Source: Spirochaetales bacterium | Lineage (GTDB): Bacteria > Spirochaetota > Leptospiria > Leptospirales > Leptonemataceae | Length of the DNA: 64,000 nt | NCBI GenBank assembly: GCA_015075425.1 | Contig: JABTUL010000001.1 | Coordinates: 1,550,001-1,614,000 of the forward strand | Direction: 5' to 3' | In this document: positions 52,708 to 62,124 of the stretch, piece by piece | Position numbering within the stretch: the stretch's first letter is position 1 | Layout: each line of letters starts with the position of its first letter | The notes under the pieces: model-generated | What the model was told of the DNA's origin: nothing | Databases searched by the model: none | What the model saw: the letters and a program-made list of their open reading frames with translations, nothing else | Position numbers and translations under genes: made by a program

Positions 52708-53622
52708 ATGCTGCTCAAGAAGGTCCAGCGTTTGCTCGGTGAGATTCTGGTGGAATCCCTCAACACCGATCAAATCAATCACCTGGCCCGGGATGTGGAT
52801 CCGGCCTTCAACCTTGCGGCCATTTCCGGTTTTGGGGAAAAAATCAGCGTTCCCCGCAAAGTTGCTGTGGATTGCATTTTGCGTTTCTTCCGCACCGAAG
52901 AGAGTTTGGTAAGGTTCATTGGCTATGCGATTTCCCGCAATGGACAGGGGATGAGCGGCGGCGTGGTTCAGCTGCGCCGGGTAGAGGAGCTGATCCGACT
53001 GCTTGCGGAAATGAACTGGATCTACAGCCAGCAAAAGCATGTCTTCTTAAAAGATCAATCCCGGGTGCGGACAAGTGATTGGGGATTCTTACAGAAAGGA
53101 GAAGAATACTTTCATAGTTTTGTGAGCATTGATATCGTGTCCTCTTCCATGCTGGTGGAAACCAACGTAAAAGGAGACGTCACCACAACTTTCTCCAACC
53201 TGCGCAACTACATCAATCAGTACGTGGAAACGGCAAACGGAAGAATATGGTTCTGGCATGGCGACGGTGGACTGGCAACCTTTTTTGGCGATGAATGTGT
53301 TCCCCAATCAGTTCAGGCCATCGTATCGATTCTATCCTACCTGCCGGTTTTTAATATAGCCCAGAATGAATTGCGCCCGGAAAATGATGTTAAACTTCGC
53401 TGTGGCCTGCATTGTGGAACTGCCATCTATGACCCGCAAATCAGTAACATAGCCAGTGCTGATATGCAACTGGCTCAGGCTGTAGAGAAACACTGTGCGG
53501 CTGCCAATCAGGTCGCCATAACCCAGACGGCCCTCTTTCATCTGCGTCCGGAGATGCGTGCTCTGTTTCACGAAGACAGTGAATATCAGGGGCTCAAGAT
53601 ATTCACCTTTGCCCCACAGTAG
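52708..53622 (+). CDS. Class III cyclase-homology protein, probably degenerate
   Basis: A 304-residue soluble protein. The N-terminal 125 residues are helical and unrecognised. Residues 130-300 resemble a class III adenylate/guanylate cyclase: first metal Asp in FVSIDIVSSS, the GDG motif in WHGDGGLATFF, and RCGLHCGTAIY as the later strand. The transition-state Asn and Arg expected in the VNxAARLE motif are replaced (ADMQLAQAVE), so catalysis is doubtful. It is followed 9 bases later by a receiver-cyclase-like gene. Probably a pseudo-enzyme sensor or a cyclase of unusual chemistry. Confidence 0.65.
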   Translation: MLLKKVQRLLGEILVESLNTDQINHLARDVDPAFNLAAISGFGEKISVPRKVAVDCILRFFRTEESLVRFIGYAISRNGQGMSGGVVQLRRVEELIRLLAEMNWIYSQQKHVFLKDQSRVRTSDWGFLQKGEEYFHSFVSIDIVSSSMLVETNVKGDVTTTFSNLRNYINQYVETANGRIWFWHGDGGLATFFGDECVPQSVQAIVSILSYLPVFNIAQNELRPENDVKLRCGLHCGTAIYDPQISNIASADMQLAQAVEKHCAAANQVAITQTALFHLRPEMRALFHEDSEYQGLKIFTFAPQ

Positions 53623-53631
53623 AGAGATTGT

Positions 53632-54669
53632 ATGGATATATTAATTATAGACTCTGATCGGGGAATCCAGAATTACTACCGAAATCTCCTCGAGTCGGAG
53701 TTTCGCAGTGTTCATGTGCGTTTTGCCATGGGCATGAATGAAGCTGCGGAAACTCTGGCGGCCAACAGACCGGATCTGGTGCTCACGGAGATTTTTCTCG
53801 AAGAAGGCAGTATCTTTGATTTCCTGGGTGCCCTGGTGAAAATGAAAATTCCGGTAATCATCGTCAGCGAGAATTATTCAGAGCGTCTGATTGTAGAATG
53901 TATCCGCGCCGGTGCTCTTGATTTTCTTTCCAAGCGTTTTATCAAACTCGGAATCCTGCCGCTACTCATCAAACGGGCCCTGCTGGAAGGAGATCGCTGG
54001 AGTAAAATTCAGGAAGTGGCTCTGGGTATTCTCCATCGTCCCGAGTATGTAGCCCTGAATCGTAAAATTCAAGGGTTTCTGAAATCGGAGGAGCTGGAGA
54101 AAAATCGGCGGGATATCTCAAGGGGAGTGGTGCGCTCCGTTGAATATGTGGAAGGGCAGAACTATCAGGTAATATTTGTTTATGTGCAGTTTCATCCAAC
54201 GGCCGAGCACCGGCAGCTGGAAAGCACCCAGAGGCTGGCCATTCAACAGCGGGTCCTCAGCGGGGCTATAGAGATGGCAGAAAAGCTTGGCGGTCAACTC
54301 TGGACCCTCAAGGAAGATGGATGTTTCTTTGCTTTTGATGGCGATGATGCTCTGGAGGCTGCCCTTGCAGCCATACAGATTCATGCCAGCCTGAATGTAT
54401 TTGCGCTCACTCAGGAGAATTTGCGTGAGGCACCCATGGTGAACATAGGCATTGCCCGCGGGCAGACGGTGTACCGGGTCAACAAGGGGGATATCTACTG
54501 CGAGGCATTGAACTTAAGCGCGCACATGGCCATCTATTCCCGTGCGCCGAATCAAATCCTGATCACCGAAGACCTCTTTACAGCTCTGGGGGCGCGGGCG
54601 CAGAAGTATTTTTTTCGCACGGATCCTTTTGAGGGTCATCCCTGCTATTCTTATGAACCCATCGCTTGA
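53632..54669 (+). CDS. Non-canonical receiver domain fused to a cyclase-like domain
   Basis: A 345-residue protein. Residues 1-120 form a receiver domain (acidic pair in LIIDSDRG, Lys in FLSKRF), but the phospho-acceptor Asp is replaced by Glu53 in LVLTEIF. Residues 160-340 resemble a class III cyclase that lacks the first metal Asp (FVYVQFHP in its place) but keeps Asn in ALNLSAHM, with His instead of the catalytic Arg. So it cannot be phosphorylated in the standard way and is probably not a cyclase. It forms a pair with the upstream gene. Its end overlaps the convergent ATPase gene by 19 bases. Confidence 0.7.
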   Translation: MDILIIDSDRGIQNYYRNLLESEFRSVHVRFAMGMNEAAETLAANRPDLVLTEIFLEEGSIFDFLGALVKMKIPVIIVSENYSERLIVECIRAGALDFLSKRFIKLGILPLLIKRALLEGDRWSKIQEVALGILHRPEYVALNRKIQGFLKSEELEKNRRDISRGVVRSVEYVEGQNYQVIFVYVQFHPTAEHRQLESTQRLAIQQRVLSGAIEMAEKLGGQLWTLKEDGCFFAFDGDDALEAALAAIQIHASLNVFALTQENLREAPMVNIGIARGQTVYRVNKGDIYCEALNLSAHMAIYSRAPNQILITEDLFTALGARAQKYFFRTDPFEGHPCYSYEPIA

Positions 54670-59015: not shown

Positions 59016-61394
59016 TCAATTCCCTTTTGCACTTTCATCCTCGCGATGCAGAAGGTCTGCGATGGTTGTTTCTGCGCGACCATCAAGAGCTGCCAGCAGC
59101 CTTTGCTGGATACGCAGAAGCCGGGAACGGAAGCGGTTGGGGCTTGAGTCACGGGGGATACTCAGAGCTTTTTCAAACAAAGCGACGTAAACATCACGAA
59201 AGCTGATGTCCCCGGGAGGCCGGGAGGGAAAGAATTCTTCCGTGTCATGGTCGTAAGAGAACATCCTTTTTTCCAGCAGCTTCTCCCTTGTATGATCCAG
59301 GCGGCTGGCATTGTTGCCAAAGATTTCCAGGGCCGCCTGGTTGGTCAGCGGTTTGTTATCTTCGTAAACAGAGGAATAAATCCTGGTAAGCAGCGAAAGA
59401 GAATTCCAGAGCAGATATTTCTCCGGATCATCAGAATCTTCAGAGATACCATAGCGGAATAAATAGGGATGTTGAACAACGTAAGCCACTTCCAGCCCGA
59501 ACAGAATGATCTGTGTGGAGGTCAAAATAACAATCATACCCACCGGGACAATGGCCCAGACGCCCCAGATGTATCCGGTAGAAGAAAAGCCCATGACCCA
59601 GGTCTGGAAAACGGCATAAAAAACGATGAGCGTGGCAGACGTGATCATACTGCCATAGAAGGCCGCACCCAGACTGACCCGCGCATGTGGTAGAAATTTA
59701 TAGAGAGTAAAGAAAATAAAAAGAATGAACAGATAGAATGTAGCGTACAGAGCTCCTTTCAATAGAAAGGCCTTCATGGCCGGGAAACGGGAAACGGGAT
59801 TGATCTGTAGCTCGACCAGAGATCGTCCAAAATCGTCGACCTTTTCCGAGCGCTCAATCCTTTCAATGGCGTAAAGGCTCTCATCCTGACCGGAAAGAAA
59901 AATCCGATTCCCGGCCGGCAGCGCGGAGTAAAGCGGATGTTCAATGGTTGCGCCTGACGGCCGGTGCCAGGTCAGGCCGTGATCAAAGGTAAAGCGTAAG
60001 AGGTCGCTATTTCCCAGGAGAAAGCCGGAACCATCGCTCTGGATATGGACCTGCTCTATGATGCTTTTGGGTGGCGCATTGAGTGCCGGGTAGTAGAGCC
60101 TGCCATCACGATGAATCCACAGCGAGTTGTCCGTGCCGGCAAAAACCACATGACCCAGCCCGTCAGAAGTCATCACCTGGAGGCGGGCCAGCCTTGAGCC
60201 GAATCGTTCTTCAAAGGGTCCAAGCCAGGTGCGTCCCAGGTCAGGCGAGTACAGGTAGCGAGCATTTCCCAGAAGGTAGAGTCCGTCGGGATGGATGGTA
60301 TCCTCCCGTCCGGTTGCAAAATAGGTCAGCCGGGAATACACAGAATCCAGGGCGGTCATTTCCAGCCTTTCTTCATAAAAGGTCAGGAAACAGGAGAATG
60401 ACCCGAGGGCGGCAAGAAGGGCCAGGCGGCCATCGGGTAGCAAAATCATATCCTCCAGATAGGCTTCGCGTATTTCTGTATCGATCTTAAAAATAATGCT
60501 GTAATGATTCCAGTTTTCTCCACGGTTGGCTGAATAAAACAATTTGCCGTTGCGGGCAATGACATACACTCGTTCGTCTGCCGCCGTTACTTTCTGTAAG
60601 TTGACAAAATCTCCCGGAGAGAGATCTTCTGGCGGTATATTCCCCTTAAGAATCTCCCAGGCGGATCCAGTCTGTCCGCTGTGGTAGTCCACGTAAATGC
60701 TGCGAAAAGGGGCACTGCGATCGATCTTTTTTTCCAGGTCCAGGAGTTTCAGGCCGGCCGGTGAATAGTGGCGCAGGATGCCATCTGTTCCCAGAACCCA
60801 TTGTTCACTGGCATCCCCGGCAAGGCTCACCAGGTCCGGTGGTTTGAATTTGTTCAGAGAATACTGAAAACCTCCGGTAGATAGAATCAGTGTGGCGGGA
60901 AGAAATACTATAGAAGCTATATAGATGGAAAAACGGTACAGCAGAGGGCGCGCCTTGCGGGCCCGGAAAATTTGATTGAAACTGTCCTCCATGTGGCGCA
61001 ATATATTGGCTGCCGTAAACACCATGAAGAGTCCGGCAGCTCCGGCAATTGTATTGGCCCGGGAAAGAATCTCATCCAGGATTTGAAGAACTTCGCTGGC
61101 GTCCATGATACCATAGGCTGCCATGAACCGGGCCAGATTGGCTCGAATCGTTTCGCGGTCCACTTCCGCATATTTAACCAGAACAGTGAGCAGCGGAATG
61201 ATGGACATGAGTAGCGAATAGGCGATGGCATTGGCCCGGTTGAGGCAATCATCGATGAGGAATTTTTTCCAGGCTGCATGCAGGATGGCGTAAACGCGTC
61301 CGGCACGACGCAGGGTCGGGCGGGCCGTCGATTCCTGGCGCAGTTTTTGCAGATAGTAGCGCAGCTGGGAACGTCGTTCAGAGAATCGTTTCAT
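59016..61394 (-). CDS. YihY/BrkB membrane protein split by a beta-propeller insertion
   Basis: A 792-residue inner-membrane protein. Residues 35-180 and 540-660 together form the YihY/BrkB permease: AIAYSLLMSIIPLLTVLV, GLFMVFTAANILRHMEDSFN and, near 565, YKFLPHARVSLGAAFYGS with four more helices. Between them, residues about 185-535 are a soluble extracytoplasmic domain with Asp-box/BNR signatures SANRGENW, SPDLGRTW and FDHGLTW, typical of a beta-propeller. The C-terminal tail (660-792) is cytosolic. The ATG at 61394 overlaps the upstream gene by 17 bases. YihY's own substrate is not known. Confidence 0.85.
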   Translation of the reverse strand: MKRFSERRSQLRYYLQKLRQESTARPTLRRAGRVYAILHAAWKKFLIDDCLNRANAIAYSLLMSIIPLLTVLVKYAEVDRETIRANLARFMAAYGIMDASEVLQILDEILSRANTIAGAAGLFMVFTAANILRHMEDSFNQIFRARKARPLLYRFSIYIASIVFLPATLILSTGGFQYSLNKFKPPDLVSLAGDASEQWVLGTDGILRHYSPAGLKLLDLEKKIDRSAPFRSIYVDYHSGQTGSAWEILKGNIPPEDLSPGDFVNLQKVTAADERVYVIARNGKLFYSANRGENWNHYSIIFKIDTEIREAYLEDMILLPDGRLALLAALGSFSCFLTFYEERLEMTALDSVYSRLTYFATGREDTIHPDGLYLLGNARYLYSPDLGRTWLGPFEERFGSRLARLQVMTSDGLGHVVFAGTDNSLWIHRDGRLYYPALNAPPKSIIEQVHIQSDGSGFLLGNSDLLRFTFDHGLTWHRPSGATIEHPLYSALPAGNRIFLSGQDESLYAIERIERSEKVDDFGRSLVELQINPVSRFPAMKAFLLKGALYATFYLFILFIFFTLYKFLPHARVSLGAAFYGSMITSATLIVFYAVFQTWVMGFSSTGYIWGVWAIVPVGMIVILTSTQIILFGLEVAYVVQHPYLFRYGISEDSDDPEKYLLWNSLSLLTRIYSSVYEDNKPLTNQAALEIFGNNASRLDHTREKLLEKRMFSYDHDTEEFFPSRPPGDISFRDVYVALFEKALSIPRDSSPNRFRSRLLRIQQRLLAALDGRAETTIADLLHREDESAKGN

Positions 61395-62124
61395 CGGGCT
61401 TGAAGTTCCTGTGGGTTGGATAGACTTCCACAAAATCGATTTCGCTGATTGCCACACGGCCATGGTGCACGTCACCCGGGTAGAAATCTATGAATTCCAG
61501 GCGAAGCCACAATTGAGCCACATGTACCGGAAAGACAGGCGAGTCAGGCACTGCCGGCAAATCCAGAGGGAAGTGCTGTCCCTGCGGTCGATCTTCCAGG
61601 ACGATTTTTTTGCGGTACAGAAACTCAGGCGCACCAGGCAACTTGAACTCACGGTCAGGATCCACCAGTTGCTGGGAGAAAAAAATGAGCTCAATCGTGC
61701 GCGGTCTTGCATACTGACGAAAAGCACCTCGAGCCTGGTTGCCGGGGTAGATGATCAGCTCCCGAACTTTGTTTTTGCGCGGCGGCGAATCCGGGTAATG
61801 GGTGGGGGAAAGCTCGAACATCAGATAGTGCATGTTCGTGGGCGGAATGGGCCCCGCCTCTTTCCCGCTGCGCACATCTGAGCCTTCACGTGTATCCCAC
61901 CAGGCGGTCTCGATATTATGGTCGAAAACAAAAGCCGGCTCTATGTCCGGAGATCTGAGCATGGAACGACTGAAAACAATGCGCGGGTACAGCTCCGTTA
62001 GTCCGCTCGCTCTTTTGTATGCCCGCGATAGCAACAGAGTCTGGCTGAAAAGAAAGACTGTGAGCACGAGTGCGGTCAGAAGAACTGGGCTGGACAGCAA
62101 TGATAAGTTGAAGCGACCTGGCAC
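61378..62124 (-). CDS. Membrane-anchored discoidin-like domain protein
   Basis: A 248-residue protein: an N-terminal anchor helix (LLSSPVLLTALVLTVFLFSQTLLL), then a beta-rich domain with FDHNIETAWWDTREGSD, VRELIIYPGNQ, ARPRTIELIFFSQ and a final EIDFVEVYP strand. That set is typical of F5/8 type C (discoidin) folds that bind glycans. It would be exposed in the periplasm. It is coupled to the YihY-propeller gene by a 17-base overlap, so the two may work together. The assignment is by fold-like pattern only. Confidence 0.6.
   Translation of the reverse strand: MPGRFNLSLLSSPVLLTALVLTVFLFSQTLLLSRAYKRASGLTELYPRIVFSRSMLRSPDIEPAFVFDHNIETAWWDTREGSDVRSGKEAGPIPPTNMHYLMFELSPTHYPDSPPRKNKVRELIIYPGNQARGAFRQYARPRTIELIFFSQQLVDPDREFKLPGAPEFLYRKKIVLEDRPQGQHFPLDLPAVPDSPVFPVHVAQLWLRLEFIDFYPGDVHHGRVAISEIDFVEVYPTHRNFKPDETIL

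Follow-up and report, generated by a model that had tools for sequence, protein, structure and literature searches.

A Ycf48-like beta-propeller inserted into a YihY/BrkB membrane protein of spirochaetes and its predicted periplasmic placement

Background

YihY/BrkB proteins (PF03631) form a large and widespread family, which we found in 10 of 14 control genomes and for which we know of no agreed function. The locus described here raises the question of what a beta-propeller is doing in the middle of such a protein. It lies in a window of 64,000 nucleotides, the whole stretch of DNA that was analysed, from a Spirochaetales bacterium (GCA_015075425.1, contig JABTUL010000001.1, positions 1,550,001 to 1,614,000), in which an earlier note, made from the sequence alone, had read one gene product (P0001 in the following) as a YihY/BrkB permease interrupted by a propeller. 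The family itself is known; as far as open-access titles and abstracts in a single library show, where no description of a propeller in a YihY protein was found, the domain architecture is undescribed.

Among the E. coli members of the family, the suppressor mutation of YhjD is usually cited as R134C. Excerpts of one study (PMC3219608) report that YhjD bound rough LPS in vitro, co-purified with LptB, and was connected to LPS-transport phenotypes.

Results

A YihY/BrkB membrane domain split in two

P0001 is encoded by a single open frame of 792 codons plus stop (Table 1). Its YihY/BrkB membership follows from a PF03631 score of 96.9 bits against a cut-off of 33.7, distributed over two stretches that cover profile positions 3-132 and 157-257 and each exceed the curated cut-off, while residues ~174-540 between them have no BrkB match; these two pieces were the sole matches of the family search in the 4.1 Mb host genome. 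In contrast, E. coli YihY (290 aa) is matched in one piece (2-257 of 259), as is E. coli YhjD (337 aa), which agrees with the view of the earlier note that an ordinary YihY protein is a continuous domain of ~290 residues. P0001 resembles both E. coli proteins in having six long helices in its AlphaFold2 model, and an alignment with YihY and YhjD among its members shows no variation at P67, P569, G611, and L631, but P0001 differs from the two E. coli proteins by an insert of ~350 residues between long helices 3 and 4 and by an additional C-terminal domain. No solved structure of a YihY/BrkB membrane domain was found by sequence search.

By the model boundaries (184-537) the insert comprises 354 residues in P0001, and its length is 318-390 residues in 53 family members if cut at residues 182-541 of P0001. 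Asp boxes, defined by the strict pattern S/T-x-D/N-x-G-x-x-W/F, number three in P0001 and between 2 and 7 in every one of the 54 insert proteins examined (P0001 included), compared with a mean of 0.04 per sequence in shuffled controls (20 shuffles each). The earlier reading of a YihY/BrkB protein interrupted between membrane helices by about 350 residues with three Asp boxes was hence borne out in all of its parts. Chance or artefact was rejected as an explanation, since the order of parts is identical in 54 proteins of 580-900 aa and one profile spans the insert, and a single open frame in the window as well as in relatives likewise speaks against two genes joined by a sequencing error. Furthermore, neither P0001 nor its relative L103 had a match in PADLOC, which argues against a role in defence.

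Table 1. Positions within the window of the P0001 gene, its parts and the gene upstream of it
Feature	Position	Strand	Basis
Whole gene, YihY/BrkB protein with inserted beta-propeller (P0001)	59016..61394	-	Open frame; PF03631 in two pieces
Long membrane helix 1, residues 50-75	61170..61247	-	AlphaFold2/DSSP; BrkB N-half
Long membrane helix 2, residues 113-142	60969..61058	-	AlphaFold2/DSSP
Long membrane helix 3, residues 151-183, insert immediately after	60846..60944	-	AlphaFold2/DSSP
Inserted seven-bladed propeller, residues 184-537, predicted periplasmic	59784..60845	-	Model strands 188-535; PDB matches; charge counts
Asp box 1, residues 288-295 (SANRGENW)	60510..60533	-	Strict pattern
Asp box 2, residues 383-390 (SPDLGRTW)	60225..60248	-	Strict pattern
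Asp box 3, residues 469-476 (TFDHGLTW), W476 invariant in 53 family members	59967..59990	-	Strict pattern; alignment
Long membrane helix 4, residues 539-567	59694..59780	-	AlphaFold2/DSSP; BrkB C-half
Long membrane helix 5, residues 575-604	59583..59672	-	AlphaFold2/DSSP
Long membrane helix 6, residues 608-641	59472..59573	-	AlphaFold2/DSSP
C-terminal winged-helix-like domain, residues 657-790, predicted cytosolic	59025..59426	-	Model secondary structure; family profile Rrf2-like (4cic, 1.5e-6)
Upstream gene, membrane-anchored F5/8-type-C-like protein, last 17 bases overlap propeller gene start (counted from ATG at 61394)	61378..62124	-	Conserved neighbour in the window's family only

The insert is predicted to fold as a Ycf48-like propeller

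The AlphaFold2 model of P0001 (alignment of 32 sequences, mean pLDDT 75.9, pTM 0.58) is ordered as three long helices, a beta-domain at residues 188-535, three further long helices, and the C-terminal domain, and the model of L103 was better, with a mean pLDDT of 81.5 and propeller blocks mostly near 90. For both models, Foldseek placed Ycf48 at the top by E-value (P0001: 8am5_S, E 3.4e-9; L103: 5ojr_B, E 5.0e-13, TM 0.70 by target length). VIA-align comparisons, made with the propeller part alone, gave nearly tied Z-values for the 50 best rows, of ~24-25 for P0001 and 25-27 for L103, and these rows included the first propellers of GH74 xyloglucanases, virginiamycin B lyase, WD40-type propellers, and the designed seven-bladed protein 7big, which was aligned to the L103 model over 268 of 286 residues (Z 25.3, rmsd 2.8). 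Against PDB sequences, the family profile likewise reached Ycf48 (2xbg, E 4.4e-30), and at E 0.001 or better PF14870 (Ycf48) was present in 30 and PF03631 in all of 34 members; P0001 itself does not reach the curated PF14870 cut-off (18 vs 27 bits), and L103 scores 92.6 bits.

Structure prediction thus returned a propeller, as the earlier note had expected, and not some other fold, in two AlphaFold2 models and in PDB matches to seven-bladed propellers. Seven blades are well supported for the predicted fold, the number being taken from the seven-bladed targets together with the strand list rather than counted in the coordinates. The likeness to Ycf48/HCF136 (PF14870; 2xbg, 5ojp, 8am5) therefore lies in a seven-bladed Asp-box propeller on a non-cytosolic side of the membrane, here by prediction; the difference is that Ycf48 is free-standing, whereas the propeller of P0001 sits inside a polytopic membrane protein.

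Across 53 members, the mean frequency of the top residue was 0.42-0.62 in the six long helices, 0.33 in the propeller, and 0.29 in the C-terminal domain. Conservation within the propeller peaks at Asp-box and turn residues (e.g. G283, G292, G502, W476) and, outside the repeats, mainly at P186 and D225. Judged by alignment conservation, these 53 members share no set of acidic, arginine, and tyrosine residues, and apart from D225 no conserved polar site was evident in the propeller. Since conservation is low outside its Asp-box and glycine/tryptophan positions, the propeller shows no obvious conserved site at which one particular partner would dock.

The propeller is predicted to face the periplasm

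Mean counts of K+R and D+E were 3.0 and 0.7 for the TM2-TM3 loop, 2.0 and 0.3 for TM4-TM5, 0.6 and 0.0 for TM5-TM6, and 4.0 and 5.9 for TM1-TM2. Three long helices on each side of the insert, together with the K+R-rich TM2-TM3 and TM4-TM5 loops, predict a periplasmic location, so that the periplasm-facing propeller of the earlier note agrees with both lines of evidence. A cytosolic insert is disfavoured by the helix count as well as by the charge counts.

The C-terminal domain and the propeller are separable modules

Residues 657-790 of P0001, a domain that the earlier note had not picked out, are modelled as helix-rich with two short strands. With the family profile A3, the C-terminal domain matched the Rrf2-type protein 4cic in the PDB (E 1.5e-6, and 6.3e-7 with insertless rows in the profile), and CymR was also matched, weakly. 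P0001 alone had no match to Rrf2 PF02082 at E up to 10, and PF02082 matched 1 of 34 members at E 0.001. The protein is hence similar to Rrf2/BadM-type regulators at the level of the family profile, but unlike them it is fused to a membrane protein, has no single-sequence match, and contains no cysteine in this domain, whereas cluster-binding Rrf2 proteins carry cysteine. The best NCBIfam match of P0001, below cut-off, was PRK04214, annotated as 'ribonuclease BN/unknown domain fusion protein'; loci of this kind (L135-L179) share with P0001 a membrane domain followed by the same kind of C-terminal domain, but none of the 45 has the propeller.

The C-terminal domain is missing from 14 of the 54 insert proteins, its presence requires at least three changes on the tree among 53 insert rows, and the corresponding region was matched, to some length, in all 45 insertless relatives labelled as non-spirochaete. 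Propeller and C-terminal domain, each of which can be missing without the other, are therefore separable modules, and as neither end depends on the other, this weighs against a simple sensor-to-regulator relay. In one genome, a separate frame of 143 aa (G018:C96:156069-156398) resembles the C-terminal domain, and the propeller protein of that genome lacks it.

Spread of the architecture through the phylum

A protein search in 41 genomes, the host's own included, gave matches in 39. Within the class, the family profile matched 45 of 48 genomes, one of them (G165) in the propeller region only and a few as fragments only, and 29 of the 30 with a completeness of 90% or more and a contamination of 5% or less. 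The homology search for the same insertion and its phylogenetic spread, which the earlier note had proposed, found 75 genomes, out of 392 searched in the phylum, with a single match that spans the insert (counted by eye among the matches listed); they belong to 12 family codes (f1-f5, f11, f22, f30, f34, f38, f40, f46). Among the matches listed, insert fragments occurred in seven further genomes (G008, G012, G026, G028, G196, G206, G216), and 228 of the 392 genomes matched in some way, many with hits confined to the BrkB halves or to propeller-like stretches.

A wider scan of one genome per species (84,980 bacterial and archaeal species) yielded 419 confirmed relatives, the best 80 of which were kept. 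Thirty-five of these 80 loci were labelled as spirochaete (34) or as uncultured bacterium (1, L112), and 33 of them contain one frame across the insert (32 spirochaete-labelled and the uncultured one; L127 is cut by the contig end), the remaining two being a contig-edge fragment (L132) and a broken frame (L133). The insert was absent from all 45 loci labelled otherwise among the best 80 of 419, and an insert-bearing protein should outscore an insertless one in such a scan. The architecture is real and conserved across much of the phylum, a point absent from the earlier note.

The propeller was gained once and naturally removed once

A tree of 102 rows was computed from the core with the insert removed, by a quick search that left some long branches and from which no deep order is claimed. 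It comprised 53 of the 54 insert proteins (the truncated L009 was left out), 24 insertless rows of the phylum (L045, L049, L085, L089, L091, and L093-L097 were unused), every second (23) of the 45 insertless loci with other labels, and the two E. coli proteins. On this core tree, the insert proteins share ancestry with insertless YihY/BrkB members, among which the 53 insert rows and the insertless L047 (genome G136) form one group with an SH-aLRT of 100. L047 nests within the insert clade beside three insert-bearing relatives (SH-aLRT 100), and grouping all insert rows without L047 was rejected by the AU test (p 0.034). One flank of L047 carries a TonB-C-like gene, a c7 cluster gene, and EF-G, and the other flank c10 and c8 cluster genes, the same set as around its insert-bearing relatives; its frame (L047/L202) passes from the end of the third helix directly into the fourth.

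The nesting of L047, the AU test, and the gene order shared with its insert-bearing kin indicate a loss in G136, where the whole propeller has naturally been removed in frame at a syntenic locus. Comparison with YihY relatives lacking the insert, another suggestion of the earlier note, thus provided insertless relatives of which one occupies the same locus. The history of the insert is most simply one gain and one loss: the propeller was gained once, early in one spirochaete branch, and long kept there. Several independent insertions are unsupported, as the tree needs two changes for the 53 insert rows of 102.

Two proteins of another spirochaete family (f13), L084 (frame of 604 aa, G145) and L085 (frame of 567 aa, G162), carry a different insertion of roughly 120-130 residues between helices 5 and 6, which is the other predicted periplasmic loop; periplasmic elaboration of YihY/BrkB proteins may have happened twice. 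Furthermore, other propeller-like frames in the host genome match the insert part of the profile (G000:C1:219728-220132 and G000:C2:901028-901822), and are possible kin of the donor of the propeller.

Gene neighbours hint at the envelope

Of 19 loci in the window's family, 11 have a gene for an F5/8-type-C-like protein immediately upstream in the same orientation, which either overlaps the propeller gene or lies within 45 bases of it. PF25302 exceeded its cut-off in one copy (L182, 29.1 vs 27 bits), and the window's own copy had no Pfam match. A profile of this protein matched 9 genomes out of 149, of which 8 belong to the window's family; the copy in G006 adjoins the propeller gene, whereas those in G002, G014, and G017 are on contigs apart from it. 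A Wzy_C O-antigen ligase-like gene is divergently oriented in the window's family. In other orders (e.g. L109-L131), a convergent gene downstream, with a TonB-C-like end, is the usual neighbour (21 of 55 loci), often followed by EF-G. As neighbours differ between lineages, the context hints at a role in the envelope and names no partner. Elsewhere in the window, two adjacent frames (52708-53622 and 53632-54669) look by eye like nucleotide cyclases, the second of which starts like a response regulator.

Discussion

Our best reading, which is tentative and to which we assign a probability of roughly 0.4, is that the insert is a periplasmic docking module on a probably lipid-handling inner-membrane YihY/BrkB protein, built from a Ycf48-like propeller gained once. 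The helical part would handle an envelope lipid or glycolipid, reminiscent of E. coli YhjD and LPS, a link that we infer from one E. coli paralogue distant from the insert clade (its end branch on our tree measures 4.27). The propeller would sit at the periplasmic mouth of the helical domain and act as a docking platform; the partner that it holds would most likely be a protein or peptide from the machinery that builds the envelope, with a glycan less likely. Since one relative lacks the propeller at this locus, the domain would raise efficiency or specificity and not be required for the basic activity.

The docking platform is proposed by analogy to Ycf48. Excerpts of one publication (PMC8038367) describe Ycf48 as a lumenal lipoprotein and photosystem II assembly factor that interacts with its membrane-protein client D1, and its seven-bladed propeller family as proteins that 'frequently mediate protein-protein interactions'. 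As Ycf48 is the nearest solved relative both by sequence profile and by Foldseek E-value, docking of a peptide or protein appears at least as likely as glycan binding, and Asp boxes by themselves are no indicator of the latter.

The propeller might instead be a glycan or glycolipid receptor which recognises the sugar of an envelope glycolipid, e.g. an LPS precursor, and presents it at, or gates it into, the membrane domain, close to what the earlier note had in mind. Such a role would fit the excerpted YhjD data on LPS (PMC3219608), the F5/8-type-C-like and divergent Wzy_C O-antigen ligase-like neighbours in the window's family, and the position of GH74 xyloglucanase propellers at or near the top of the VIA comparison, albeit within 1 Z of propellers that bind no glycan. 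But Ycf48 outranks the glycosidases both by sequence profile and by Foldseek E-value, the F5/8-like neighbour hardly occurs outside the window's family (to which 8 of the 9 matched genomes belong, 149 searched), and D225 aside no conserved polar site is evident. Glycan binding and gating, which the sequence relationship does not favour, seem doubtful to us.

A passive spacer or structural cap, which binds no ligand and only serves to shield or brace the protein on its periplasmic side, would be in line with the low conservation of the propeller and its clean loss in G136. A useless domain should have been lost more often, though, and the insert is kept in 75 genomes from 12 family codes (among the matches listed), with the family profile present in all but one of the 30 good-quality genomes of the class; we therefore consider a mere spacer improbable.

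We find it decidedly improbable, too, that the protein is a transmembrane sensor, in which the propeller would sense a signal and relay it via the helices to a cytosolic winged helix acting on DNA or protein. The model does unite in a single chain a module on the periplasmic side, the helices, and a cytosolic end resembling a winged helix, the family profile reaches Rrf2-type regulators, and Foldseek lists the periplasmic portion of the hybrid sensor BT4663 at rank 48. These points are opposed by the separability of the two ends, seen in insert proteins that do without the winged helix and in insertless relatives that retain it, and by a C-terminal domain which in P0001 has neither cysteine nor an Rrf2 match of its own. 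Lastly, a periplasmic hydrolase (sialidase- or GH74-like) tethered to the membrane protein would account for the Asp boxes and for the weaker hits of the family profile among PDB sequences of GH74 enzymes and sialidases, but is highly improbable, as the top conserved insert positions are glycines, tryptophan, and Asp-box residues with no conserved acidic/arginine/tyrosine set seen in 53 members, and as Pfam and NCBIfam gave P0001 no enzyme family over cut-off.

Returning to the docking module on a lipid-handling protein, one further step, which we regard as unlikely, is that the propeller would be a built-in periplasmic receptor passing an envelope component or its carrier to or from the membrane domain, turning the protein into a two-part lipid or glycolipid mover. 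If this were true, the partner could be fished out with the propeller as bait, and the G136 lineage, from which the propeller was excised, would have lost or replaced that partner.

Conclusions

The natural deletion in G136 indicates that the chain tolerates the loss of its propeller, which makes a clean laboratory deletion of the propeller a sensible experiment. A soluble, well-predicted periplasmic domain that was fused once and has been widely kept is, in addition, a usable bait for partners of the membrane part. In this way, the propeller gives a concrete handle on the role that the large YihY/BrkB family plays outside the cell membrane.
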